Source of the DNA: Balneolaceae bacterium
Lineage (GTDB): Bacteria; Bacteroidota; Rhodothermia; Balneolales; Balneolaceae
DNA: 64,000 bases
Assembly: GCA_034521445.1 (NCBI GenBank)
Contig: JAXHMM010000012.1
Span: 62,001-126,000 of the forward strand
Reading direction: 5' to 3'
Under the pieces are notes generated by a model. The model had not been told where the DNA came from. It did not search any database and was given only the letters and a program-made list of their open reading frames with translations. Below are positions 30,900 to 47,211 of the stretch, piece after piece (within the stretch, counting starts at the first letter, position 1; each line of letters opens with the position of its first letter). Position numbers and translations under genes: made by a program.

Positions 30900-32146
30900 A
30901 TGCCAGATATCCAGCGAAGAGAATCCATCCAGGTGATGGTGGGCGACGTACCCGTCGGGGGAGGCGCGCCCATCGTCGTGCAGTCGATGACCAACACCGA
31001 TACCTCCGACGTGGACGCCACTGTCGAGCAGATCAAGCACCTGCATGCGGCGGGATCGGAGATCGTCCGTATTACCGTCAACAACGACGATGCGGCGAAG
31101 GCGGTCCCCCATATCAAGGAGCGGCTGCTGGAGGACGATGTAAACGTGCCCATTGTGGGCGATTTCCACTACAACGGCCACAAGCTGCTAACCAAGTACC
31201 CCGAGGCCGCCGCCGCGCTGTCCAAATTCCGCATCAACCCCGGCAACACGGGCACCAAGACCCGCGACGAAAACTTCTGCACCATCGTAGAGCAGGCCAT
31301 AGAGCACGACAAGCCGGTGCGCATAGGCGTAAACTGGGGTTCGCTCGACCAGCAGCTGCTGGCTGACAAGATGGACGCCAACAGCAAGCGGGAAAAACCC
31401 AAGTCGTCCAAGCAGGTAATGCTGGACACCATGGTGGAGAGCGCCCGCCGCTCAGCCGAACTGGCCGAGAGCGTGGGACTTCCCTCCGACAAGATCGTCA
31501 TCTCCTGCAAGATGTCGCACGTGCAGGACGTGGTGGAAGTCTATGAGCGCATCGCCGAGCTGTTGGAGTATCCCCTGCATGTGGGACTTACCGAGGCCGG
31601 CATGGGCATGAAAGGCATCGTTGCCAGCACCTCGGCCCTGTCGGTGCTTCTGCAGCAGGGCATTGGCGACACCATCCGGGTATCCCTCACTCCCCAACCC
31701 GGCGGCGACCGCGCCAAAGAGGTGCGCGTCTGCCAGCAGATCCTGCAGTCCCTCGGCATTCGCAGCTTTATCCCGCAGGTCACCGCCTGCCCAGGCTGCG
31801 GCCGCACCGGAACAGCACCTATTTCCAGGAGCTGGCCCAGGAGATCCAGGACTACCTCCGCGAAATGATGCCCATCTGGCGGGACGTCTATCCCGGCGTC
31901 GAGGAGATGAACGTGGCCGTCATGGGCTGCGTGGTCAACGGGCCGGGCGAGTCGCGCAACGCCAACATCGGCATTTCCCTGCCCGGCACCTTCGAGGAGC
32001 CCAAAGCCCCGGTGTACATGGACGGCGAGCATTTTACTACGCTGCGCGGCGAGGGCATAGGCAAGCGCTTCCGCGATATCCTCGACGACTACGTGGTGCG
32101 CAACTACGGCAAGGAGCCCAGCAAACAGGAGGCCGAGCCGGCGTAG
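30900..32146 (+). CDS. ispG: 4-hydroxy-3-methylbut-2-enyl diphosphate synthase (GcpE), one frameshift
   Basis: The enzyme converts MEcPP to HMBPP in the non-mevalonate isoprenoid pathway and needs a 4Fe-4S cluster. The TIM-barrel part starts with [18 protein letters not shown] and includes [11 protein letters not shown]; cluster cysteines are visible in ACPGCGRT and [10 protein letters not shown]. The frame breaks near 31808, in a run just after CPGCGRT; restoring one base gives [12 protein letters not shown] and a normal end at 32146. The gene is usually essential, so a sequencing error is the most likely reason for the break. Total length is about 415 residues. Confidence 0.9.
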
Positions 32147-32260: not shown

Positions 32261-33390
32261 ATGGAAGAGAATACATTCGCTACGGCTTGCATGGGGCCTA
32301 TTCCTGACGATCCTTGTCATGCCGTTCGGATTGGCGGCAGCCCAGAACCCGGCAATTTACCATACGCTTGAAGAGGAACTGGTAATTCGGGAGCATGGCG
32401 AATGGCAATTTGGCGAGGTGGGAGATATCCTCGCTGACACTTCCGGCAACATTTATGTCAGCGACCGTTATTACGGGCACATCAAGGTATTGGGACCCGG
32501 GGGTGAGCTGCTGCGCGCCATCGGGCGGGAGGGCAGGGGACCGGGGGAATTTCAGGACCTGGTATCAACAGACTTCTGGAAAGGAGAGCTCCTGGCACTT
32601 GACCGCACAGCCCACCGGGTGAGCTGGCTGGACGCCCGCACCGAGGAGCTGCTGGATGAGTTCACCTTCCGCCCGCAAGACGTGCGCGGAAGCAACGGGA
32701 CTCCCTACCAGGTCATGGGCGTTGGGCGACAGCCTGGTCGGTGTCGTCTTCTCAACCCCAGTGCAGGGTGCAAACCTTGAAACAGAGCGCCCGTCGTTTC
32801 TCGTTACCTATGACCGCGAGGGAGAGGTGCAGGTCAATCCGCTGCTGACCGGCCCGGGGTCCGAATTGATGGCAAGACGCACTTCCACGGGCGGCCTCCG
32901 CATTACCCCGCGTCCTTTCGGCCGCGAGTCGCTCTTTAGGAGGGGACCCGACAGCTTTGTCTATTCTGCCTGGACCGGTGAGTTCCGTATCCGCCGGCAT
33001 CATCCGCGAAGCGGGACCTCCGAGAGCATCATTGAGCAGGAATTCAAGCCGTCACCGGTTACCGAAGCGCAGTTTGATTCGGTGCGGAACTCGTACCCGA
33101 ATCCTGATTTTCTGGAATCCTTCGATACCACTTTTCATACCCATTGGCCCGCTCTTGAGCAGTTCCTGGTAGATGATCAGAACCGCATCTGGGTGCATTT
33201 TCGGGCCGGTGACGGCCAATACCGCAATCTATGGGCATTTGAACATGACGGATCGATTGTTAACATTATCGATCACAACGTGACGGGTAGTGTTGCCCTG
33301 GTTCGAAACGGGAAAATCCACACGCTGCATATGGACGGGGACCGAAGGCCCGTTATACGTAGATATGCCATTGTTGAGGGCTTGAATTAA
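32261..33390 (+). CDS. 6-bladed beta-propeller protein (propeller 1), frame disrupted
   Basis: A secreted beta-propeller protein of about 375 residues. The hydrophobic signal segment LAWGLFLTILVMPFGLAAAQ lies just before residues ending in the mature N-terminus QNPAIYHTLEE; an ATG at 32261 reaches it only if one base is gained or lost. The family motif GREGRGPGEFQDL marks the second blade. A further indel near 32719 separates SNGTPYQVM from LGDSLVGVVF. Related proteins in this phylum often sit next to small secreted peptides or transporters. Here it lies directly upstream of an RND pump. Two other propellers occur at 38631 and 42934. Confidence 0.6.
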
Positions 33391-33404: not shown

Positions 33405-36400
33405 TTGTACCTCTGGCAAATTTATACTACACTAATCGTACATTCTAATGTATTCGGACGCCGATACTTGCTGCTAAAACGCCCCATTACCGCCTTCATG
33501 TTGATCCTGGCGACCCTGATTTTCGGGACCATCGCCTTGACCAACCTGTCCGTCAACCTGTTGCCGGAGGTGGATTCCCCCACCATGCTCATCCGGACTG
33601 ACTGGAGCGGCGCATCTCCCCGTGAGGTAGAGCAGCAGATCAACCAGCCCCTCGAAGCCCGTCTCAGTTCCCTGCAGGGCATGGAAAACATCACAGGATT
33701 TGCGCGCCAGGGACAGAGCGTGATATCGGTGACCTTTCAGTGGGGCACCAACATGGATCTTGCCTTCCTGAATGTCCGGGAGGGACTGGACCGTGCGGGT
33801 TTTGGGCTGCCTGACCTGGCCGGCCGTCCCCAATTGGTACAGAATACCGCTTCCGACGAGCCCATAGCCGTGCTGGGTATAGGAAGCACGAACAATCCCA
33901 ATCCCGATTTCGAGACCCAGATGGAGCTCAAGCGCTGGGCCGAGTCGGTTCTTACGCGACGGCTTGAACAGGCCGACGGCATTGCCCAGGCACTGCTGGT
34001 GGGCGCCGTGGTACCCGAGGTACGCATCCGCTACGATACGGAAGCTCTCAACCGTTACAACATCAGCATATCCCAGGTGCGCAGCAGCATTAATGACGCC
34101 AATGTGTTTGTGCCCGCCGGGGAGCTGAGAGACGGGTGGTACCGCTACAGCCTCAAGTTCCAGACCCAAATATCTTCCATGCAGGATATCCGGGAGGTGC
34201 CCCTTACCCGGTTGGGCACCGGACGGGTACTGACCCTGGATGATGTGGCCGAGGTGGAAATGGCAGAGGCCGATCCGTCCTCGTTTTCGCTTGTAGACGG
34301 CACGCAGACTCTCAGCGTGCTGGTGAAAAAGGAGTACGGCTCCAACACGGTGGAGGCCTACGAAACCCTGCTACCATTGCTGGACGAGCTACGCTCCCAG
34401 ACTCCAAACGTGGAGATCTCGGTGTTGCAGGAGAATGCCACTTTCATCAGTAACGCCATCAACAACCTGCTGCAGACCCTGCTGTACGGGGCGCTGCTTG
34501 CCTTTGTGATCCTCTTTCTTTTCCTGGACGACCTGCGCACGCCCTTTACCATTGGTGTAGCCATTCCGGTAAGTATTTTTCTCACATTCTTTGTGATGTA
34601 CCTGTCGGACATTCAGCTCAACATTGTATCCCTGAGCGGTCTTACGTTGGGCATCGGTCTGCTGGTGGACAATGCCATTATTGTACTGGAGAATATTAAC
34701 CGGCACAGGGAGGATGTAAAAAGCGTTCTGGAGGCGGCCTCCAGGGGAACCCGTGAAATCGCCCTGGCTGTATCAGCCTCTACCTTTACGACCATCTCGG
34801 TCTTTCTGCCGCTCGTCTTCCTAGGCGGTTTTGAAGGAGCTTTTTTCAAGGACCAGGCGTGGACGCTCTCCATTAGTCTGCTGGCCTCCCTGCTGGTCGC
34901 GCTGATGATCCTGCCCGTGCTGGTGGTACAGTTTCAAAAAGACGGGGAGCAGAAGAGCATCCTTGGTTTCAAGGGGCGATTTAACCGCATACGTGACCGC
35001 TACGAGCAGAGCCTGCAGTGGGCACTGGACCGCAAAATCTGGTTTGTGCTGGTGATGGTGCTCCTGCTGGGAACTTCCGCCTATCTGTTTTACTACGTGC
35101 AGAAAAGCATACTGCCCATCACCGAGCCCGAAGAGGTGACCTACCGTGTCCGACTGCCCGGCAACACGGCGTTGTCTACCTCCCAGCAGGCCGCTTCGGC
35201 CATGACCGACTATATCACGCCCTATAGCGATCAGGATAGGCCTCTGCAGGTCCTCGGGGGACACACCGACCAGACCAATCTGTCCAATCTCTCCAGTGAG
35301 GGACCCAATAAATTTCGCATTACCATTCCGGTGAACGGCTATGCACAGGCCGATACCGTACGCAGCCGGATGGAATCCTACCTCGAGGGGAGACCGGGCT
35401 GGTCCGCCCAGGAGGAGAGCTCGGGAGGAGAGATGATTGCGCTTCAGAGCACCGACCAACCGCCGGTGATCTTCCGGCTCATCGGCAACGACCGTTCGCA
35501 GAGTGAGCAGCTTGTGGGTGTTCTGGAGGAGGAACTCCAGGAGAGAGGGCTCTCCCTCGATTTAGCCAAGCAGTACGAACAGGAAGTGGATACCTACCAC
35601 CTGCGATTCCGGCAGGATCCCATGATGCGGCTGGGCATATCCCAATCGCAGGTGATGGATTACCTGGAAAGCCTCACACGGGGTAATATGGTAACGGAAT
35701 GGGACCGGCAGGACGAGAGCGTGGCCGTGCGACTGGTGGGCATGGACCGTAACGTATTTGCGCCTACCGATATCGTCATGAACATGGAAGGACTCAGCAT
35801 TCCGCTTACGAATCTGTTGGAGGTGAGCAGGTCATCCGAGCCTGAGCAGCTGGAGCGGGTAAACCAGACCCGGTGCTCAGCTACGTGGCCGATATGGATT
35901 TTAGCGGGTGGTGGCTGAACAGCAGTGCTATCAATGAGGCGATGGCGGTATTTACGCAGCGTACTGGACTGGACGTGGAAGTAGGCGGATCAGCGCGCAG
36001 CATCGCCGAACTCCTGAGAAGTATGGGGCAGTTACTGCTGGTAAGTGTGATCATTATCTACCTCATCCTGGCTATACAGTTTGAAAGTCTGAAATATCCT
36101 GTCATTATACTCGTGGCCGTGCCCTTTGCGTGGATCGGCTCTATTCTTGTGCTTTGGGCTACAGGCGTAAGTCTGAATGCCCTTTCCTTCATGGGCGTAC
36201 TGATTCTGACCGGTATTGCAGTCAACGACTCTATCCTGAAGGTGGACTTCATGCGGCGCTACCTCAACGACACGGGCGATCTCGACCAGGCCGTCACGCA
36301 GGCGGGCCTGCACCGTTTCCGTCCTGTGGTCATGACCAGCCTGACGACTATTTTTGGACTTGTGCCCATGCTAATTCCTTTCGGGGACGGATTTGCCTTC

Positions 36401-36538
36401 CGGCAGTCACTGGCCATCGCATTGATGGGAGGCATGGTGACCAGCACGGTACTCACCCTGTACCTGGTACCGATCATTTTTCACTGGGTGGAACGGAATG
36501 CCGGCAAGGTGCAAGAACAGCCGGCGACGGACCGCTAA
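33405..36538 (+). CDS. RND efflux transporter, inner-membrane pump 1, one frameshift
   Basis: A resistance-nodulation-division pump of about 1040 residues. The N-terminal segment LLKRPITAFMLILATLIFG is typical, as are the porter-domain stretches GQSVISVTFQWG and GIGLLVDNAIIVLENINR with the conserved Asp of helix 4 region. A one-base gain in the C run near 35869 breaks it between ERVNQTR and PVLSYVADMDF; the rest (to PATDR) reads cleanly. No in-frame ATG occurs at the start; the TTG at 33405 is the best candidate. It is followed after 44 bases by its fusion protein. Pump substrates are unknown. Confidence 0.82.
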
Positions 36539-36582
36539 GCGAAGGTATACTGTATAAATCGATAACATTCTACGAGATCATC

Positions 36583-37707
36583 ATGGATTACACCAACCTG
36601 AGAAAGTCGGTTTTAGTTGCGCTTCTGGCGGCCGGCATGCTGGCCGGGTGCCAGGGAGACGGCAGTGAGGAACAGGAATCACCGCTATCCGATGAGGAGG
36701 AAGAGTCCGTGGAGGTGCGTCCCGAAGTTACCTTTGCCGTGGCAGACGACGAGCCTATTTATACCTATGTGGAGAGCCAGGGCCTGGTGGAGGCTGACCG
36801 GGAAATCACCATTTCACCCCGTATGAGTGGATATGTGACCACTACTAATATCGTGGAGGGTCGGCGCGTTCAGGAAGGCGACACCCTTCTGCAGTTTGCA
36901 GAGAGAGAGCTGGCACTGGATCTTCAAGAGGCCCGGAACAACCTGGCGGACGCCCGTCAGGAGTATGATCTTCAGAAAGAATCGGAAGGCTGGACCGGCA
37001 CTCAGCGTGACGATGAGGCGCTGCGCATTTCAACAGGACTTGCCCAGGCCGAGCTGAATCTGGAGCGCATCCAAATGCAAATGGAAAATACCACGATTAC
37101 CGCGCCCTTTACGGGTACCCTGGCGACCGAAAACAGGATCACGCCGGGAGCCTACCTGTCGGCCGGAACCGAAATCGCCACGCTTATTGATGACCGCACC
37201 CTACGCGTACGTTTTGACGTGCTGGAAGCCGAAGTAACCCGCATTGAACCTGGCATGCAGGCGGAAATAAATGCGCCGGGCGGCGTTCAGACGACGGGGG
37301 AGGTGGATGCTGTTTCGCCGGTCGTCAACAGCGATACCAAGACGGGAGAAGTGATCATCAGCATTGACAATCCTGGAGGCCGCATCAAGAAAGGTATGAC
37401 CGTTGAAGGCCGTGTTTTGGTCGAACGACACACCGGTCAGGTACGCTTTCCACGTTCGGCGGTGCTTAGTCGTGACGGTGGACGCACCCTGGTTTTCAAG
37501 TACAATCCCTCCAATTCGGAGGTGGAATGGATTTACGTCACCCCGCAATTCCAGAACCGAGAATGGGTGATCGTCAATCACGAAGACATAGCACCTGGCG
37601 ATACCATCGCCGTCGACCAGCATTTCTCGTTGAGTCATCTGCAGCTTGTTACGCCCATGATGCAGTCTCTTGAGCAGCAGGATGCCGAAGAAATTGGCGG
37701 AAACTGA
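36583..37707 (+). CDS. RND membrane-fusion lipoprotein
   Basis: A 374-residue periplasmic adaptor. Residues 1-23 are a lipoprotein signal ending LLAAGMLAGC with Cys23 lipidated, followed by an acidic spacer (SDEEEESVEV). Then come the first lipoyl half (VEADREITISPRMSGYV), an alpha-helical hairpin (LALDLQEARNNLADARQEYD), the second lipoyl half (TITAPFTGTLATENR), and beta-barrel and membrane-proximal domains (IEPGMQAEINAPGG). The start ATG at 36583 is chosen over an upstream open frame that overlaps the RND gene. Normally it would be shared by both RND pumps at this locus. Confidence 0.88.
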   Translation: MDYTNLRKSVLVALLAAGMLAGCQGDGSEEQESPLSDEEEESVEVRPEVTFAVADDEPIYTYVESQGLVEADREITISPRMSGYVTTTNIVEGRRVQEGDTLLQFAERELALDLQEARNNLADARQEYDLQKESEGWTGTQRDDEALRISTGLAQAELNLERIQMQMENTTITAPFTGTLATENRITPGAYLSAGTEIATLIDDRTLRVRFDVLEAEVTRIEPGMQAEINAPGGVQTTGEVDAVSPVVNSDTKTGEVIISIDNPGGRIKKGMTVEGRVLVERHTGQVRFPRSAVLSRDGGRTLVFKYNPSNSEVEWIYVTPQFQNREWVIVNHEDIAPGDTIAVDQHFSLSHLQLVTPMMQSLEQQDAEEIGGN

Positions 37708-37800
37708 TATAATTTATGTAACAAATGGGTTGGTTTTCTCTCTTGTGGTTAGGAGTTGTGTCTTCAACGACTCAATACCCGTATTAACCGGAGAGTGGGA

Positions 37801-38226
37801 ATGCCATACGGTCACAGGAATATTGACAATATCCTCCAGGAGTACAGGAAGTCCCTTGCTCCACCGGAGGAGGACTGGCCCTTTGATGTCCAGCTTGCCT
37901 CTCGTTGCCTGAACAAACGCCTGTATGACGAATCTCTGAATGTTACTGAGCTCAAGGAACTCTGCGGTATACAGTCCCGTAACTTCTCCGCCCGGTTCCG
38001 CTACTATACCGGCGAATATCCCAAGGATTTTCTCATCAGGCACCGAATAGCGGCCGCCAAACGAGTGCTCACCTCCGATACCTATAACGGCAGCAACCTG
38101 ATGGAGTTGGCATTGTCCTTGGGCTTCCGAAGCCACTCCAGTTTTACCAAGGCATATCGCAGCAGGGAAGGGGTGGCACCATCCAAGCATATCTCAAGTC
38201 AGGTGAAATCCCATACCCGCACCTGA
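37801..38226 (+). CDS. AraC-type DNA-binding protein (short form)
   Basis: A 141-residue regulator with a C-terminal AraC/XylS-type double helix-turn-helix. LNVTELKELCGIQSRNFSARF is the first HTH; FLIRHRIAAAKRVL and MELALSLGFRSHSSFTKAYR form the linking helix and the second HTH. There is no ligand-binding domain. An upstream TTG at 37756 would add 15 residues; ATG 37801 is preferred. It follows the pump and fusion genes and precedes the peptide/propeller island, so it may control either. Confidence 0.78.
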   Translation: MPYGHRNIDNILQEYRKSLAPPEEDWPFDVQLASRCLNKRLYDESLNVTELKELCGIQSRNFSARFRYYTGEYPKDFLIRHRIAAAKRVLTSDTYNGSNLMELALSLGFRSHSSFTKAYRSREGVAPSKHISSQVKSHTRT

Positions 38227-38326: not shown

Positions 38327-38614
38327 ATGACAAATCTACTTAACTATACATTTTTCATCCTATTACTAGTAGGAAACTTGTGGGTTGGGAACAGCTCGTT
38401 GACGACCCAAGAGAGCGTTGAGCTTAGCAACAGTATTTCATCGATAGAACTTGGACCAGCAGCAATATGCAATACTCTTGGCTGTATGGGAGGGCTGCAA
38501 TTGTGTTCCGATGCTAAGGGTTCGATAGATATCGAATACAAGGGGGCTGGCCTCACCCTTGAAGTTACATACAAATGCTATCAGGTGCCTCGCGTAACAG
38601 TTGAGGAAGGCTAA
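38327..38614 (+). CDS. Small secreted four-cysteine peptide 1
   Basis: A 95-residue precursor with a hydrophobic signal (FFILLLVGNLWVGNSS). The mature part has ICNTLGCMGGLQLCS, cysteines 48, 53 and 60, and a fourth at 84 (YKCYQV). The pattern C-x4-C-x-G-G-x2-L-C-S is shared exactly with the peptide at 42666. It lies 16 bases before the next propeller gene and the codon use is AT-rich, unlike the surrounding genome. It is compatible with a disulfide-bonded exported peptide, and resembles in plan the small peptides found before propellers in Bacteroides (for example the NVEAL type), but no NVEAL box is present. Confidence 0.6.
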   Translation: MTNLLNYTFFILLLVGNLWVGNSSLTTQESVELSNSISSIELGPAAICNTLGCMGGLQLCSDAKGSIDIEYKGAGLTLEVTYKCYQVPRVTVEEG

Positions 38615-38630
38615 ATATAGAGGTAGAACT

Positions 38631-39584
38631 ATGAATACTTATAAATATATAGCAATAATTGTATTCATTATTTGGTCTACAGTTCCTATTAATTTAGGAA
38701 CTGTAGACCGAAATTTTAGCTATGATTTGATCTTAAAGAATGACTTAAATATTACAGATTTGGATATTTATCGTCCTTATCTATTTAGTGTAGATGATAA
38801 TTCTGGAAATATGGCGGTTTACTCTTACGCAGATCATAGAGCATACATTATATTCAATGATTCAAAATCAGTTAAGATTTACGGAAAAGGACAAGGAGGA
38901 GGTCCTGAAGAGTTTAGAAATCCTACAGATATAAAATTTGATAAAAGTGGTAACTTTTGGATTGCTGATCCACATCTTGCCAGAATCAGTATGTGGTCAC
39001 CAGATTCAGGCTTAATAGGGACCATTAATCATCAATTTGCTGTTCCAGAAAAAATCTCAGTATCTGAAGAATTCTATGTACTCAAGGATCAAACTTACTC
39101 TCCAACCCATGGTTTACTTAGATTATATAATTCAAATACAAAAGAGCATATAAGATTTGCAAAATTACCAGCTAAACTGACTGAGTCTGCATTATTAATG
39201 GACTCAATGATTAGTTCTGATTCAGAAAGAGTTTACGTTACAATGCTTAATGCTGGGTTGATATACTGTTTTGATAGAAATGGAGATAGTTTATATGAAA
39301 TATCAACTATTGAACCGGTTAAAATTGCTGAACTCAAACTAATTGAAATAAATAATGTTGCTGGCCTCAATAAACTTGAAGCATATAAATTGCCAGAAGA
39401 AACTGTGCGTGCAGTTCTTGATCATGATATCAATGAATCATATCTGATCTCATTATTTGATGGTACCTCGAAGGGGGTAGGTCATTTTATTGATATATAT
39501 GATAAAATATCTGGAATATATCTTGGATCAGTAAATTTGGAAAAGGTGACCGATAATTATGTCATAGGTATTGAAGTCCATTAA
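38631..39584 (+). CDS. 6-bladed beta-propeller protein (propeller 2)
   Basis: A 317-residue protein (ATG 38631, with AGAGG 8 bases upstream). The signal segment is YIAIIVFIIWSTVPINLG. Beta-propeller blades follow: GKGQGGGPEEFRNPTDIKF is the GxGxGPGEF-type motif, and DKSGNFWIADPHLARISMW is the next blade. It is homologous to propeller 3: LFDGTSKGVGHFIDIYDK here matches LFSGSKKLAGRYIDVYNK there, and the early LFSVDDNSGNMAVYS matches LFSVDKSKLDIAIYS. Compared with propeller 3 it stops about 25 residues early, ending at IEVH. The gene is strongly AT-rich. Function unknown; a periplasmic sensor or peptide partner is possible. Confidence 0.7.
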   Translation: MNTYKYIAIIVFIIWSTVPINLGTVDRNFSYDLILKNDLNITDLDIYRPYLFSVDDNSGNMAVYSYADHRAYIIFNDSKSVKIYGKGQGGGPEEFRNPTDIKFDKSGNFWIADPHLARISMWSPDSGLIGTINHQFAVPEKISVSEEFYVLKDQTYSPTHGLLRLYNSNTKEHIRFAKLPAKLTESALLMDSMISSDSERVYVTMLNAGLIYCFDRNGDSLYEISTIEPVKIAELKLIEINNVAGLNKLEAYKLPEETVRAVLDHDINESYLISLFDGTSKGVGHFIDIYDKISGIYLGSVNLEKVTDNYVIGIEVH

Positions 39585-39724
39585 ATCAATACTACACCTG
39601 CAGACTATAGATAAATCATATAATTACAGAATTGAAAGTTATGAGCTCATCAAGAAATAGCAGATTCACAATTCTCATAGTGATAATGATGATACTAAAT
39701 GCTTTTCTTATCCTGAGTTTGAGG

Positions 39725-41049
39725 TGGGCCCCATAAGTTGTACCACCCCCGGTGCTAATTGTGGCTAAGAGATATGGATGAGCTCCTGTTGGTAGAAACC
39801 GAAGATATCATGGCTGATATTCGCAGGCAAAAGATACTCCCCGGAGTTCAAGTTTGCGGTAGTAATGGAAGCTCTGAGGGGGGATGATTTCAGACAAGGA
39901 GGTGGCCGACAAGTACGGGGTCCCATCCGGTCACCTTGAGCGATTGGAAGAGCCAACTGCTGGAGGAGGGGCACCAGGTCTGACGCCCGGCGGACCCGGA
40001 AAAACGAGCGGAAGAACAAAATCCGCCAGCTCGAGCAGAAGCTGGAACGCACCGAGGTCGAGCTGTCGCTGGCCAAGAACTTTTTAAAAAAACTTGACGC
40101 GCCCCCAGAAAATGCAACTGATTCAGACCTGGAAAGACCGCCAAGGGTTAAACCGATGCCTGCGGCTCGTGGGCCTGCCCAAAAGTACGTGGTATGCCCG
40201 CCAGAAGGCCTCTGAGGAAGGTCTCCGGGGAGGAAGTAGCAGCTGCGGGAACAGCTCGGGCCATCATCCGGGAGCATCCCGGATATGGCTGGCGCAAACT
40301 GCAGGCCGAGCTGACCGATCGCGGCCAGGTTGTCAATCACAAACGCCTCAAACGCGTGCTTCGCCAGACGGACCTGCGGCTGCTGCGATGGCTGCCTCGG
40401 CCGGGCCCCAGCGGTCCTCAGCAGGTCTTGGGAGCCCACAAAGGGCATTTAAATCGGCTGGCCGGTCGCCGTTTTGGGCCCTTCGAGCTGCTGTCGGGGG
40501 ACTTTACCGAGCTGCAGTGGGCCCGGGTACATCGCAAGGGATGGCTGGGGGCGTTTTATGATCCCGCCGGATGCCTGCCCTGTGGATGGGCCCTCGGGAA
40601 GTCGGCCAACACGGATCTGGCCCTTGAGGCCTGGCGGAATGGTACGCCAGTGGTTCAAGGGGCACGGGAAGCCCCTGCAGGAAACAGTGGTGCATACCGA
40701 TCAGGATTCGGTGTTCAAAAGTTACCGCTGGCTGGGAACACTGCTCCACGAGGATCAGGTAGAGGTTTCTTACAGCGAGCGGGGAGCTACCGACAATCCG
40801 TGGATCGAATCCCTGTGGAGTCGCTTGAAGGAGGAGATCGGCGAGCAGGCTTTACCAGGCGTCCTGCATAAACGGAAGTGCGGCAGATCATAAATGAATA
40901 TGTGGACTATTACCGAACTCAGCGACGACACCAGTCGCTAGATTACCAGATCCCAATGGAGCTACTCACGAACCATAACGATAACAACCGGCATCATCCA
41001 TCTGACCTGCACCAATTAGTACTGTAGGTGGTCCAATATTAGGGGCCCA
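39725..41049 (+). mobile_element. IS3-family insertion sequence
   Basis: The ends are imperfect inverted repeats: TGGGCCCCATAAGTTGTACC at 39725 and the complement of TGGGCCCCTAATATTGGACC at 41049, both followed by ACC. They begin with TG and end with CA as usual for the family. Inside are orfA and orfB in overlapping frames. No target duplication is seen: the three bases before are AGG and those after are TGT. It inserted in the thioredoxin-like gene, with IS30 only five bases away. Confidence 0.85.
39774..41027 (+). pseudogene. IS3-family transposase orfA and orfB, several frame breaks
   Basis: OrfA starts at ATG 39774 (MDELLLVETEDIMADIRRQ). After a one-base shift it gives RYSPEFKFAVVMEALRG, then DKEVADKYGV, then HPVTLSDWKSQLLEEG and a leucine-zipper end (IRQLEQKLERTEVELSLAKN). 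OrfB has the HTH_21 part (HPGYGWRKLQAELTDRG) and the DDE catalytic domain: Asp in SGDFTELQWA, Asp in VVHTDQDSVFKS, Glu in WIESLWSRLKEEIG. It ends with HQLVL at 41027. Frames change at least four times, so the transposase is inactive in this sequence, or the region has many sequence errors. Confidence 0.7.
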
Positions 41050-41081
41050 TGTCCGTTCAAGTCATAAGTGCAACACGAAGA

Positions 41082-41111
41082 AAGACCTCAGGGGACATCC
41101 CCTGAGGTCTT
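41082..41111. terminator. Hairpin inside the left end of the IS30 element
   Basis: AAGACCTCAGGGG (41082-41094) and CCCCTGAGGTCTT (41099-41111) form a perfect 13-bp stem with a 4-base loop. Such structures near IS ends block impinging transcription from outside and protect against uncontrolled transposase expression. No T run follows, so it is a hairpin barrier rather than a standard terminator. Confidence 0.6.
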
Positions 41112-41139
41112 CCGCCAAGCGGGTTATATTCGTGTTGTC

Positions 41140-42142
41140 ATGCAAAAATACACCCAACTCAGCGTAGAAAATCGTCATCAGATCAAAGCTCTGCTGGATG
41201 CGGGCCATAATCAAAGCGAGGTTGCCCGAACCATCGGCGTGGATAAATCTACCATCAGCCGGGAGCTTAAACGCAATGTAGCCAACGAGGGCGCGGAGAG
41301 CAAGGACTACTGCCCGGAGGCCGCCCAGAAGATGACCGACCGGCGTCACCGGGACAAGCCCAAACATCGCCGGTTTACCGACGCCCTCAAAGCCCAGGCC
41401 CGCCAGTGGCTCACCGAAGAGAAGCTTTCCCCGGAGCTGATCAGCGGCCGCTGGGGGGTGTTGGGCATCGAGGGGGTTTCCCATGAGACCCTCTACCAGT
41501 GGATCTGGGCGGCCAAACGCACGGCAGATCCCACCGACAAGGATCTCTACAAACACCTCAAACACGGGGCTCGCAAGGCCAAGCGGGGCAACAGGAAAGA
41601 CAGCAGAGGTCACATCAAAGGCCGGGTATCCATTACCGAACGTCCCGAGGTCGTCGAAGAGCGCGACCCGCCTCGGCGACATCGAAGTCGATCTGATGGT
41701 GGGCAAGGCCCACAAATCAGCCCTGCTGGTGCTGACCGATCGGGCCACCCTGCTGACAGCCCTGGAGAAGGTAACTAGCCGGAAGGCCGATGGTATTGCC
41801 GACCGGATCACCCAGCGGCTGGGCCGGCTTCCATCGGCCTTCATCAAAACCCTGACCTTTGACAATGACAAGGCGTTTGCCCGTCACCAGGACATCGCCG
41901 AACAGCTGGATGCCGATACCTACTTCACCCGTCCGTATACCTCTCAGGATAAAGGAACGGTAGAAAACCGCATCTGGGTCATTCGACGGTTCTTTCCGAA
42001 GGGTACGGACCTGCGAGAGATCTCCGTCCAGCGCATCAAAACCGTCGAGCAGTACCTGAACTTTCGACCGATTCGTAAATTTGATTACCTTAACCCGATT
42101 CAACAAACCCTAAAACACCGCTGTGTTGCATTAATCACTTGA
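41140..42142 (+). pseudogene. IS30-family transposase, one frameshift
   Basis: Start ATG 41140 (MQKYTQLSVENRHQIKALL). The N-terminal helix-turn-helix is SEVARTIGVDKSTISRELKR. The DDE domain is split by an indel near 41668: before it VSITERPEVVEERD, after it GDIEVDLMVGKAHKSALLVL (first Asp), then TLTFDNDKAFARH (second Asp) and KGTVENRIWVIRRFF (Glu). Apart from the indel the length (about 333 residues) and motifs are complete. The stop lies in the right terminal repeat. Confidence 0.78.
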
Positions 42143-42665
42143 ACACGGCATCTATACAAATTATCGAAAGAATATAGTAATAGGAGAACTTTCAGATTTT
42201 CCTACTATTGAAAATAGCATCAGAGACAATACCACGAAGGCTAACTCTGACACGCTACGCTTTTTGCCTAAGAAATTCACAAATCCTCTAAATTTAGTGC
42301 TTATATATCCAAAATCTTATTGTGGGGCATGTATCGATTTGGATCTTCCTATATTAAAGGAAATATCAAAGATGTACCCTTCAGTTATAAATGTTGCTGA
42401 TAATGGTATTGATTACAATATGATTTCATTGATAGATGAAAATAGCGAAAACGTATCACTAGTAAGCTTTTCAAATACCGGCATTTCAGAACGAGTTCTT
42501 CAAGTAGATCTTCCTATTATTTACTTGGTTGATTTCAATGGGCAAATAATTTTGAAATATCAGTCAGTTTTTGGAAATGTTGAGAATCATAAGACATTCT
42601 TTGAAAAAGTGTTAAGTCTATTATCAATCACATATTCTGTCAATTAACTACAAGAGAGGAAATAT

Positions 42666-42950
42666 ATGACTACGAATAATCAAACTTCGAAACTAACGCT
42701 ATTAGCGTTAATGGTAATGGCCATAATTTTGACCCTAATAACCGGGCCAATTCAAGTTGATGCACTACCAATAAAGAGTGAATATCAACAAGAGGATCCT
42801 GGGTTTTATCAATTAATATGTTCTGCTTCTTTATGTAATGGAGGATCACGATTATGCAGTATTATAAGTGTACCCTCAAGTACGCCTGGATTAGATTATC
42901 GTTATCCATGTTTTGAGCCTTCATTTCCATCTAATGAATTGGATTTCTAA
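42666..42950 (+). CDS. Small secreted four-cysteine peptide 2
   Basis: A 94-residue precursor with a good ribosome site (GAGAGG) and a hydrophobic signal (LTLLALMVMAIILTLITG) with possible cleavage near VDAL. The mature part has ICSASLCNGGSRLCS, cysteines 52, 57 and 64, then a fourth at 82 (YPCFEP). The first three cysteines have the same spacing as in peptide 1 (C-x4-C-x6-C), and the GG and LCS residues are conserved. The next propeller gene starts inside its last codons, a sign of translational coupling. AT-rich codons fit the island. Confidence 0.6.
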   Translation: MTTNNQTSKLTLLALMVMAIILTLITGPIQVDALPIKSEYQQEDPGFYQLICSASLCNGGSRLCSIISVPSSTPGLDYRYPCFEPSFPSNELDF

Positions 42951-43935
42951 ATCAATATTTCTCTCCACGGTTTTGCTTTGTCTGTGGTGTCTCCCTAATT
43001 CTGGAGTAGAGTTGACCAGGATTGGGGGAATATCACTTAGCAAAGAGTTGGCGGGATCCGAAATCCTATTTAGTGTTGATAAATCCAAGCTTGATATAGC
43101 CATATATTCTATAACATCTAGTAAAATAGCTAGAATATCACATAACAATTACAAAGAACAAATAACTCATATAAAAGTTGGCCAATTAAGACCTACTGAT
43201 CTGTTATTTAACCAAACTGGGGATATCATTTCTTTATCACCAGAAACAGATAGGGAATTTATTTGGCAGGATAATGGTGTCGTGAAAATATTATTGAATG
43301 ATAGTGGTACTACTTCTTACAGGCGGGTGATAATGGGTGATTTTGTTGTTAACCTTCACGGCAAATGCTTTGCACAAAATTCATGTATGAAATTAACATA
43401 CGGAAGTAATGAAGTTTATTTTGCACGATTTCCCAATGAACTTTCAAATGTTGGATTTATAAGAAATAGCCCCATTGCAGCTGATCAATCCAGTATATAT
43501 TTAGGACAAAACAATTTTGGTTTAATCAGCCGATATAACTTGAGCGGCATGCTAATTTATGCCATCCCAACTATACGTTCGATTGAACACAAACCAACTC
43601 AGGAAGTTCGACATAATACCCGCATATCGCTATTTGGAAGAATTGCTAGAACTACTATCACTTCACGTTATAATGATGCAACAAACTCAATTTTGGATAT
43701 AGATGTGAACGATAAGTATATCATTACTCTCTTTTCAGGATCAAAGAAGTTAGCAGGGAGATATATAGATGTTTACAATAAGAATAATGGGGAACCCATT
43801 GGGAGTATCGCATTGAATAAAATTACTAAAAGGAATGTGATAGCGCTTGAAGTTGTAGGAGATAGTATATTTTTACTTTCCCAGGACGCACAGCTGAGTA
43901 ATTATGTTGATGAATTCAGATTGGTATTTACTTAG
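42934..43935 (+). CDS. 6-bladed beta-propeller protein (propeller 3)
   Basis: A 333-residue protein. The start at 42934 (MNWISKSIFLSTVLLCLW) gives a good signal peptide and overlaps the four-cysteine peptide 2 by 17 bases; a TTG at 42913 is an alternative. Propeller-type strands follow (LFSVDKSKLDIAIYS, VGQLRPTDLLFNQTGDI, DVNDKYIITLFSGSKK). It is homologous to propeller 2 and, more distantly, propeller 1, and it has an extra C-terminal piece (VGDSIFLLSQDAQLSNYVDE) that propeller 2 lacks. After it the sequence returns to GC-rich and the second RND pump begins 90 bases on. Confidence 0.68.
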   Translation: MNWISKSIFLSTVLLCLWCLPNSGVELTRIGGISLSKELAGSEILFSVDKSKLDIAIYSITSSKIARISHNNYKEQITHIKVGQLRPTDLLFNQTGDIISLSPETDREFIWQDNGVVKILLNDSGTTSYRRVIMGDFVVNLHGKCFAQNSCMKLTYGSNEVYFARFPNELSNVGFIRNSPIAADQSSIYLGQNNFGLISRYNLSGMLIYAIPTIRSIEHKPTQEVRHNTRISLFGRIARTTITSRYNDATNSILDIDVNDKYIITLFSGSKKLAGRYIDVYNKNNGEPIGSIALNKITKRNVIALEVVGDSIFLLSQDAQLSNYVDEFRLVFT

Positions 43936-44025: not shown

Positions 44026-47000
44026 ATGGAAAACCTGTTCCGACGACGATATCTGATCTCGCTTACCTACATGATCGTAGTCGTCGTTGGTATTGCTGCC
44101 TGGCAATCCATTTCGTTGGAGGAGGCGCCTGAGCTTAATCAACCCTCTATCTCCATCAGCTATAGTTGGGGCACCACTTCGCCGGAGATCGTCGAAAAAG
44201 AAATTACCCGCAAGGTTGAGTCTGCCGCCAACAGGCTGCGGGATGTAGAGCGGATTGTCTCTTCAACAAGTGAGGGCAGTTCAAGCGTTACCATCTATTT
44301 CAGTAACAATGCTCCTGTGGATTTCCGCAAAGTGGAGTTGCAGGAGTATCTGATCGGCATGCAGGAATCGCTGCCTCCCAACGTGCGGAATCCCAGCATC
44401 ACGCACAGGGTGCCGGAGGAGCTCCAGGATACACAGAATCTGCTCCACTATACCATCAGTGGAGAACGGCAGGTAAACGAATTGCTGGACTATGTGGACC
44501 AAAACATTCGATTGCCTCTGCTGGGTGTAGACGGAGTATCCGATATATCCGTTCAAGGGGCGGCACGACCGGCACTAGTGTTGGAGTTTAATCCCCAGAT
44601 GGTTGACAGGTACAACATCAATCCCAACGCCATCGGATATCAGATAACTACCAATTTTCAGTGGCGATCATCTGGATTTATAGAAACTTCCGGGAATCGT
44701 TACAGCATGTTGGTGCCGCCACAGTATGAGAATCTTGACGATATCCGCAGCATGTGGATCTCCGTACCAGGATCCGAGCGTCGTCTGCGTCTTTCAACCG
44801 TTGCCAATGTTTCTATACAGGATGCGCCTACCACCTATGCTTACCGTATTAACGGCACGCCGTCTCTGACCATACAATTCATCAAAAAAAGCGGTGCGGA
44901 TGCCATCCGGCTGGCGGAATTGCTCCGCGGCAGAATGGACGAAATTCGCAGTGAGATGCCGGAAGAATTTACATTGCGGCTGGTGAATGATTATACGGAG
45001 GATCTAAGGGAGCAATTCGACAGTTTGCAGAATCAGGCACTGGCCAGTCTGGCGGTCGTATTTCTAATACTCCTGGCCTTCATACGGCGTTTCCGGGCCC
45101 CATTTGTGATTCTTGGTAGCATCATCTTTTCACTGCTGCTTAGTTTGGCCATTCTCTACTTCATTGGCTATACGCTGAATGTACTGACCCTCGCCGGCCT
45201 TACCGTGGCCCTGGGCATGATTATTGACAACGCCGTAGTAGTTTTTGAGCAGGTGAATCCAGGACTGCCGGACGATCGAGAGAGCCGTATCCAGCATGTA
45301 GTTGAGCAGCTTCCACGGTCGGTGGTACCTGTATTGGGTGCAACCCTAACCACGGTGGGCATTTTCATACCTCTGTTTTTTGCGATGGAAGAGCTCCAGC
45401 TGTTCCTGGTGCCCCTCGCTGTAGCTCTCTCATCCACTTTGGTTTCCTCAGTGTTTATCGCCTTATCCTGGATTCCCTATTCACTGATCTGGCTTGTTCC
45501 TCCCAAATCGGACAGCAAGGAGATTGCCAGAGAAGCGCGTGGATTCTTCAAGAAGTTTCGCAGGGGACTTCTTTGGCTTTTTGCCTTTCGCCATCGTGCC
45601 CGTTGGTTTTTTTACGTGGCTCTTATAGCCGTATTCGGAATTCCCATCTGGGCTATTGAGACGCCGGCCTTCGATGACGAGGAAACACAAACCTGGTGGC
45701 CTGAATTTACCCGGGTCTACTTTGATAACCGCTCCGATATCGATCCCTGGGTAGGAGGGTTGTCGTACCGGTTCTTCAATGATATTTATTTTGGAAGTCC
45801 CTGGGGAGGCTACTCAACCCAGCAGAGTATCTATGTCAGTATTAGAACCCCGCAGGGAACGCCCTACGAAGAAATCAACAAGATGGCGCTTAATTTCGAG
45901 CGCATTGTGCAACCTTATGCGGACGCCTTTACATACTACCAGGCACAGGTAAACAGCCGCAATGAAACGGCCAACCTCCGCTTCTATATCAAAGACGAAT
46001 ATCTTACCCGTCCTGAGCCCTACATATTCTACGCAGAAGCTCAGTATCTGGCCGCACGCACGGGCAATTCGGGTATTTCGGTAGGTGGGCTGGGTGACGG
46101 CATCTCCACGGGGCTGGGAAGCATGTCCATCAACAGGAGCATCTATCTGACGGGCTACTCCTATGATGGTCTGCTGGATGTTGCCCGGGACCTGGAACGC
46201 AGGCTAACACGCAGCCGGAGGGTGAATAACGTCGATATTCATGGATCGGGGGGATATGGCAACGAAGAAACCTTTCACTATTTCTTGGATCCAAGGAAGG
46301 AAGAAATGGCCATGCGTGGTATAGATTGGCAGGAACTCAGTCAGGCCATATCCATGGACGTCAACACCAGCAATACGGCCGGCAGTATTGAGATGAATGG
46401 GCAGAGCATGCAGGTTATCACCAGAAACATTACGCCTGCCGACCGCCCCGAACAGCTGCTGAACAAAAAGCGCATCAGCGGACCCGATAGCACCATGTTT
46501 ACCCTGGAGCAGGTGGCGGAGGTGAGCCGGGAGAAAACCCAGTCAACCATCAATCGGGAAAACCAGTCATACTCACGCACGGTAGGTGTGGATTTCCTTG
46601 GTCCACATCGCCTGGCCACCGATTACATCGATGGCGTGGTGGAGGAGACGCCCACACCGGTTGGCGTGACCATCAGCACCAGCCGAAGCGGCACATGGAA
46701 TTTTGGAAGTTCCGAGCAGACCCGAAACTTGCTGTTCATCCTGGCTATGACCGTCCTGAGCGTATGGATGATCGTCTCGGCCTTGCTGGAATCGTGGGTG
46801 GATCCGCTGATCGTGATTTCCGCCGTGCCCCTCAGTCTTATTGGCGTGATGATCGGCTCCCTGTATCACGATCTGGCCTTCGACCAGGGAGCTATTGCAG
46901 GCACCCTGCTCTGTGTTGGTGTAGTGGTCAATAACTCCATCCTCCTTATGCACGAAAAGCAGTATCTGCGCGGTAAGGGCATTCACGGCATACGAAGCTG

Positions 47001-47211
47001 GCTGTATGTATACCGCAACAAGATGCGGGCGGTGATGGTGACGACACTTACGACCATCGGAGGACTTCTCCCCATCCTTATTCTGAGCGACCACGATATT
47101 TGGCAGCCGCTCGCCACCATCGTAACTTGGGGACTGGGCATCAGTACGGTGCTCATCCTGTTATTGATGGGCCTCTGGGAGAAGACAAACCTGAGAAGCG
47201 CAAACGATTAG
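44026..47211 (+). CDS. RND efflux transporter, inner-membrane pump 2
   Basis: A complete 1061-residue RND pump. Helix 1 is RRRYLISLTYMIVVVVGIAA, the porter domain has SVTIYFSNNAPVDFRKVEL, and the proton-relay region is LTVALGMIIDNAVVVFEQVN. Further helices sit near ILIILLLA-like stretches and at the end (GLGISTVLILLLMGLW). The frame is intact. With pump 1 and its lipoprotein, it forms a two-pump, one-adaptor layout like MdtBC, but here separated by the island of 38.3-43.9 kb. Two non-identical pumps often form mixed trimers. The start ATG is at 44026. Confidence 0.88.
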   Translation: MENLFRRRYLISLTYMIVVVVGIAAWQSISLEEAPELNQPSISISYSWGTTSPEIVEKEITRKVESAANRLRDVERIVSSTSEGSSSVTIYFSNNAPVDFRKVELQEYLIGMQESLPPNVRNPSITHRVPEELQDTQNLLHYTISGERQVNELLDYVDQNIRLPLLGVDGVSDISVQGAARPALVLEFNPQMVDRYNINPNAIGYQITTNFQWRSSGFIETSGNRYSMLVPPQYENLDDIRSMWISVPGSERRLRLSTVANVSIQDAPTTYAYRINGTPSLTIQFIKKSGADAIRLAELLRGRMDEIRSEMPEEFTLRLVNDYTEDLREQFDSLQNQALASLAVVFLILLAFIRRFRAPFVILGSIIFSLLLSLAILYFIGYTLNVLTLAGLTVALGMIIDNAVVVFEQVNPGLPDDRESRIQHVVEQLPRSVVPVLGATLTTVGIFIPLFFAMEELQLFLVPLAVALSSTLVSSVFIALSWIPYSLIWLVPPKSDSKEIAREARGFFKKFRRGLLWLFAFRHRARWFFYVALIAVFGIPIWAIETPAFDDEETQTWWPEFTRVYFDNRSDIDPWVGGLSYRFFNDIYFGSPWGGYSTQQSIYVSIRTPQGTPYEEINKMALNFERIVQPYADAFTYYQAQVNSRNETANLRFYIKDEYLTRPEPYIFYAEAQYLAARTGNSGISVGGLGDGISTGLGSMSINRSIYLTGYSYDGLLDVARDLERRLTRSRRVNNVDIHGSGGYGNEETFHYFLDPRKEEMAMRGIDWQELSQAISMDVNTSNTAGSIEMNGQSMQVITRNITPADRPEQLLNKKRISGPDSTMFTLEQVAEVSREKTQSTINRENQSYSRTVGVDFLGPHRLATDYIDGVVEETPTPVGVTISTSRSGTWNFGSSEQTRNLLFILAMTVLSVWMIVSALLESWVDPLIVISAVPLSLIGVMIGSLYHDLAFDQGAIAGTLLCVGVVVNNSILLMHEKQYLRGKGIHGIRSWLYVYRNKMRAVMVTTLTTIGGLLPILILSDHDIWQPLATIVTWGLGISTVLILLLMGLWEKTNLRSAND

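Follow-up and report, generated by a model that had tools for sequence, protein, structure and literature searches.

Gene cassettes for four-cysteine peptides and NHL-like propellers at a conserved RND pump operon in Balneolaceae

Organization of the locus

The analyzed window is a 64,000-nucleotide stretch (contig C12, positions 62001–126000) of the 3.2 Mb genome of a Balneolaceae bacterium, designated G000. All genes of the locus lie on the plus strand, in the order propeller 3, RND1, membrane fusion lipoprotein (MFP), AraC-type HTH regulator, peptide 1, propeller 1, split thioredoxin-like gene, peptide 2, propeller 2, and RND2:

~32319..33390, +: propeller 3 (DUF5128/NHL-like), in two frames, 32319–32780 and 32656–33390
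33405..36538, +: RND1, HAE-1-type pump (ACR_tran), in two frames, 33405–35918 and 35873–36538
36580..37707, +: membrane fusion lipoprotein, MFP (HlyD_D23), start approximate
37756..38226, +: AraC-type HTH regulator, DNA-binding domain only (PF12833, E 1.7e-13), recurrent in cassettes
38327..38614, +: four-cysteine secreted peptide 1, 95 aa, with the motif and a predicted leader
38631..39584, +: propeller 1, assigned by profile and fold matches
39641..39724, +: thioredoxin-like gene, 5' piece with start codon and TM anchor, stop codon inside the insertion sequence
39725..41049, +: IS3-type insertion sequence (HTH_21), ends TGGGCCCC...
~41056..42143, +: IS30-type insertion sequence (HTH_38, rve), ends TTCAAGT...
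42144..42647, +: thioredoxin-like gene, 3' piece with C-G-A-C, 25–33% identity to intact relatives
42666..42950, +: four-cysteine secreted peptide 2, 94 aa, with the motif and a predicted leader
42934..43935, +: propeller 2, start overlapping the peptide 2 gene by 17 bp
44026..47211, +: RND2, second pump in the operon of RND1 (ACR_tran), 48–56% identity to the RND2 of relatives

The initial annotation of this DNA was confirmed in part. The two peptide/propeller pairs (38327–39584 and 42666–43935) are present as described, RND genes stand on both sides of the island, with RND1 and the lipoprotein MFP before it and RND2 after it, and a third propeller opens the locus at about 32319, upstream of RND1. 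The regulator gene at 37756–38226, an AraC/XylS-type protein with an HTH_18 domain (E 1.7e-13), had been missed and is a member of the module. The initial annotation had also overlooked the dedicated signal peptidase of relatives and the likeness to NVEALA loci. The membrane-anchored CxxC thioredoxin, in turn, is not an intact gene: its TM start and its CGAC domain were both found, separated by the IS3-type and IS30-type elements. The 39641–39724 piece has the same position and TM start as the intact gene of locus L026. No target-site duplications of the two elements were found at the locus. Since two insertion sequences split the redox gene, a disruption independent of single-base sequence errors, the window cassette may be impaired and partly disabled, and its full function is doubtful. 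Frameshifts interrupt both propeller 3 and RND1, possibly through errors of sequencing or assembly, since the housekeeping gene ispG is frameshifted as well (GcpE positions 3–267 and 285–341 in two frames).

The 3' piece of the thioredoxin-like gene had no thioredoxin match in Pfam and a weak match to PDB profiles (E 0.1), and its model, folded alone, was uninformative (pLDDT 34). Its relatives include proteins with the active sites C-S-A-Q and C-P-A-S, ill-suited to simple exchange, and in G013 and G068 the second cysteine of CxxC is missing.

The G+C content of the module genes is 31%–44% vs 52%–58% in their neighbors. The AT-richness of the island, previously taken as a sign that it was likely acquired, is therefore real, and it is interrupted by the two insertion sequences, which are GC-rich (57%). 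As evidence of acquisition it is weak because the cassette genes are AT-rich in every relative.

Four-cysteine peptides and propellers

Both window peptides carry the pattern C-x4-C-x-G-G-x4-C-...-C. A profile built from six peptides and searched against 92 genomes of the family revealed 14 four-cysteine peptides, every full-length match lying directly 5' of an independently found propeller. The peptides share the motif C-x4-C-x-G-x4-C-x(13-27)-C, a spacer in G061 being one residue longer. Their leaders are hydrophobic and of the Sec type. Within the class, the four-cysteine peptide is confined to this one family (14 of 245 genomes, one of them with a relic). Comparison of close relatives established coding constraint: within one type, the peptides are under purifying selection, with dN 0.03 vs dS 1.38 in the mature part, which contradicts the possibility, raised at the outset, that they are not translated. 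The suspicion that they are fragments of a known unrelated family fails too, since none of the 14 had a meaningful match in Pfam, NCBIfam, or PDB. Assignment to a known peptide family was rejected on the same searches, and no bacteriocin family matches were obtained. A role in anti-phage defence was likewise rejected, as PADLOC gave a single weak match (E 0.002).

Propellers 1 and 2 share 24%–26% identity, and both match NHL-type propellers. The scores of propellers 1 and 3 against DUF5128 (PF17170), 19.2 and 18.7 bits, lie below the curated cut-off of 22.9. In a Foldseek search with a weak propeller model (pLDDT 51), NHL folds ranked top. These proteins are predicted to adopt an NHL-like six-bladed fold, the exact blade count depending on weak models. 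With propeller 1 as a direct query, the contig search returned two remote matches only; the propeller search in relatives yielded G013 as the first intact cassette.

Peptides and propellers vary together. Their distances are strongly correlated (Mantel r 0.82, p 2e-4), also when RND1 is taken into account (partial r 0.83), while the correlation of peptide with RND1 distances is weak (r 0.30, p 0.055). Joint exchange is illustrated by G061 and G063, two members of one genus in which rpoN is 99%, the HTH regulator 90%, and RND1 96% identical; the first 24 leader residues are also the same, and identity is 31% in the mature peptide and 24% in the propeller. Judging by these values, peptide and propeller have been exchanged jointly, the break falling within the peptide gene. 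Such joint variation and exchange, established here by comparison of relatives, is typical of toxin–immunity or signal–receptor pairs.

Gene content of the cassettes

In G013, the cassette has the intact order AraC-type HTH regulator, four-cysteine peptide, propeller, and TM thioredoxin-like protein. Two fuller architectures occur in relatives, one consisting of HTH, MauE, peptide, propeller, and signal peptidase I (SPase I), and the other of HTH, peptide, propeller, thioredoxin-like protein, and SPase I; the MauE and SPase I assignments were confirmed by Pfam. The window cassette is of the HTH/peptide/propeller/thioredoxin-like kind, without SPase I and with the peptide–propeller pair doubled. 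Every cassette larger than peptide plus propeller includes one redox protein, MauE, VKOR, or thioredoxin-like. An additional VKOR protein was found in G061, with a peptidase-ABC transporter farther on, ahead of the RND operon.

The presence of SPase I follows the sequence of the peptide. The enzyme was encoded in all nine cassettes whose peptide has the motif A-[YF]-A-G-P-C and accompanied none of the five peptides without it (p 5e-4), namely the two in the window and those in G013, G014, and G030. Genomic comparison establishes both this gene content and the correlation of the peptidase with the putative cleavage motif.

As a control for the pairing, small hydrophobic ORFs encoding four or more cysteines were counted directly 5' of genes, within 260 bp. 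They preceded 23 of 75 propellers and, among 254 other long genes, only 4 (p 7e-13). All four exceptions are at RND loci and resemble diverged propellers, and the propeller model was later extended to include them.

Linkage to one RND operon

Both pumps of the window are HAE-1 proteins with ACR_tran domains (E 7e-145 for RND1 and 5e-123 for RND2). Their nearest solved relatives are MdtB, the best match of RND1, and CmeB. Orthologues of RND1, defined by at least 57% identity (the next group reaches at most 38%), occur in 55 of the 245 genomes of the class, and RND2 is orthologous as well, with 48%–56% identity to the RND2 of relatives and at most 27% to paralogues. As far as the available sequence extends, the order at most loci is RND1-MFP-RND2. 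Cassette genes are often inserted and take four positions overall: upstream of RND1, in the RND1/MFP gap, in the MFP/RND2 gap as in the window, and downstream of RND2.

Among the 45 RND1 loci with at least 3 kb of flanking sequence, 40 had propellers no more than 5 kb away. Of these 101 propellers, 99 were on the strand of the pump, and at 20 loci a Cys-rich peptide was encoded 5' of a propeller. The comparison set of 20 paralogous RND loci, drawn largely from these genomes, yielded propellers at 2, on the pump's strand in neither (p 1e-9). Linkage to this RND operon rather than to its paralogues is thus established by comparison, and chance adjacency was rejected by the controls on other genes and on paralogous loci. 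In a panel of 31 genomes, RND1 was present in all 12 cassette-bearing genomes, including G031, counted by its degraded propeller, vs 6 of 19 others (p 1.4e-4). Because of shared ancestry, fewer independent events underlie the p values than these suggest. A remnant of this neighborhood is seen in G069, where a truncated RND1 frame continues into the tail of a peptide. The linkage has exceptions: G014 and G030 carry four-cysteine cassettes without RND1, and in G013 and G074 the four-cysteine cassette lies away from RND1 and another cassette is found at RND1. Some genomes have arrays of many propellers near RND genes with no detected peptides, and some RND loci have GG-like peptide leaders and PCAT or VKOR genes nearby.

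Related arrangements in the phylum

The conserved neighborhood that was to be expected in related genomes was indeed found across one order, and it recurs elsewhere in the phylum with different peptide families. Nine genomes of an order-wide sample of 60 carried this RND2. Propellers were located near it in G424, G563, G578, G595, G562, G553, and G569, on the opposite strand in G578 and part of G562; the same search found none in G556 or G584. In G595, the order is peptide, propeller, TM protein with C-N-A-C, SPase I, MFP, RND, OMF-like protein, and RND2. NVEALA loci were compared in two genomes distant in the phylum, G424 and G505, in which NVEALA peptides are followed by propellers and SPase I is part of the array. 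Two of the four NVEALA arrays there run into an MFP-RND-OEP-RND operon, and the other two have no adjacent RND genes. Recurrence in distant genomes indicates that the grouping is old and independent of any one peptide family.

Proposed role and alternatives

On balance, we regard the locus as probably a member of a Bacteroidota peptide-secretion system. The cassette, accompanied by its AraC-type regulator, would produce a small peptide for Sec export, which in many relatives would be cut at A-x-A|G-P-C by its own dedicated signal peptidase I. The two disulfides of the peptide would form with the help of a redox protein in the membrane, thioredoxin-like in the window and MauE or VKOR in other genomes. 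The exported NHL propeller may then bind the neighboring mature peptide specifically, acting as a chaperone, carrier, or immunity partner, and the RND1-MFP-RND2 complex would move the peptide out of the periplasm and through the outer membrane. Outside the cell, the peptide would most likely be an antagonistic (bacteriocin-like) or signaling molecule. The binding, the disulfides, the direction of transport, and the biological role are inferred. The initial proposal, that a secreted peptide matures by disulfide exchange and that RND machinery exports or senses it, is supported by the conserved neighborhood and redox genes, and its disulfide part gains strength from the alternative redox proteins encoded in the cassettes. 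The presence of an OEP gene in the NVEALA-linked operon favors a path through the outer membrane. The usual cargo of RND pumps of this type is small molecules, which counts against peptide export. Antagonism with propeller immunity is slightly preferred over signaling because the regulator has no accompanying sensor domain.

The same regulator bears on a pheromone system, in which the peptide would be a secreted signal, the propeller its periplasmic or surface receptor, and the pump or the AraC-type regulator part of the response. The regulator is regularly encoded alongside the pair, and the mature peptide and propeller vary and swap as cognate partners, as in pheromone–receptor systems. However, the regulator lacks a sensor domain, a conserved membrane signal transducer is missing, and an export path would still be required, so we consider this scheme unlikely. 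Rather improbable is the possibility that the peptide is not exported and forms with the propeller a periplasmic sensor or accessory that adjusts the RND pump to conditions such as stress or solutes. The tight linkage to one RND operon and the multi-propeller arrays with no detected peptides agree with such tuning, which leaves unexplained the dedicated signal peptidase, the swapping of alleles, and the OEP gene in NVEALA-linked operons.

The propeller could also be an enzyme acting on the peptide, in the manner of the NHL-fold lyase PAL, the system yielding a modified peptide. PAL and virginiamycin B lyase do appear among the fold and profile matches, but the best of these are non-enzymatic NHL domains, few polar residues are invariant across the propellers, and the strong pair specificity suggests binding, all of which makes catalysis distinctly improbable. 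That the RND operon is a mere hotspot for unrelated cassettes fits the AT-rich, patchy, and exchangeable genes and the insertion sequences close by, but is very improbable given the same-strand bias (99 of 101), the 2 of 20 paralogous loci with propellers, the several insertion points, and the recurrence with different peptide families across the phylum.

If the peptide-secretion reading is right, it may apply more widely. We tentatively consider it possible that Bacteroidota share intercellular peptide systems in which exchangeable peptide–propeller pairs set specificity and RND rather than ABC transporters export the disulfide-bonded peptide, NVEALA being another branch. RND pumps have been studied as drug exporters; they would gain a new natural substrate class, ribosomal cysteine-rich peptides, and Gram-negative bacteria an additional route of peptide export. 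The propellers and the NVEALA peptides would acquire a testable role, and the exchangeable pairs could be a source of specific peptide binders, perhaps of narrow-spectrum antimicrobials.

Comparison with known systems

The peptide–propeller–RND system as a whole is probably undescribed, while its component families are known. A search of open-access literature found nothing on point for the peptide/propeller/RND grouping, whose link to the thioredoxin and two RND pumps had looked undescribed from the start.

MdtABC-type operons likewise combine one fusion protein with two RND pumps, and MdtB is the best solved match of RND1. The operon studied here differs in its order, RND1-MFP-RND2, and in the peptide/propeller cassettes inside or beside it. 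Two RND genes and one MFP gene are conserved across the loci and may encode a heteromultimeric pump with two different RND subunits. Double-glycine bacteriocin clusters with peptidase-ABC exporters also encode small secreted Cys peptides and maturation genes. In contrast to their GG leaders, the leaders of the four-cysteine peptides are of the Sec type, and the cassette has no ABC exporter; the combination that defines such bacteriocins, a GG leader and a peptidase-ABC exporter, was therefore not found for the four-cysteine peptides. The NHL six-bladed propellers of TRIM71, Brat, and Mei-P26 and of bacterial DUF5128 resemble those of the window in profile and fold matches, whereas the latter are exported bacterial stand-alone proteins scoring below the Pfam cut-off.

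NVEALA loci (PF14055), for whose peptides the open-access literature search retrieved no recorded function, differ in their peptide sequences and redox protein. No PF14055 match was obtained in the window peptides, in any of 14 relatives, or in 39 related genomes. SPase I, part of the NVEALA array, is absent from the window cassette and present in relatives with A-x-A-G-P-C. The likeness lies in the arrangement: a short peptide whose leader ends in E-A-x-A, a 6-bladed propeller directly after it, SPase I, and MFP-RND genes. In the window, as in such loci, a peptide gene lies 5' of a predicted 6-bladed propeller beside an RND operon.

The ispG gene of the window (30900-32146) is read in two frames instead of one, and the rhomboid-like genes close to it also appear split, which suggests indel errors in the assembly. 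A strong hairpin with an 18-bp stem (-29.6 kcal/mol, z -7.9) was located at 38671-38712, within the part of the propeller 1 gene coding for the signal sequence; no comparable hairpin was found in the checked start regions of the relatives' propeller genes.

In the excerpts L146, L147, L150, and L154 from related genomes, the orthologue of the HAE-1-type pump gene RND1 lies amid an array of propeller genes, five to eight in number when gene pieces are counted, and a peptide gene was mostly undetected there. At three other RND1 loci (L152, L153, and L155), the propellers were preceded by Cys-rich peptides with GG/AG-type leaders resembling EMKNIMAG, and L153 contained a VKOR-like fragment. In genome G069 (L144, 1495-2985, minus strand), the tail of the four-cysteine peptide continues from a truncated RND1 frame, which is probably a deletion relic. 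In genome G061 (L131, 1019-4557, reverse complement), the stretch upstream of three propellers and RND1 codes for a peptidase-ABC transporter as well as an HlyD-like protein. Genome G017 (L041, 176-2086, reverse complement) has the same kinds of parts in another gene order: the first gene encodes a Cys-rich peptide of a different type, the second a redoxin-family protein carrying C-N-S-C, and the third a propeller.
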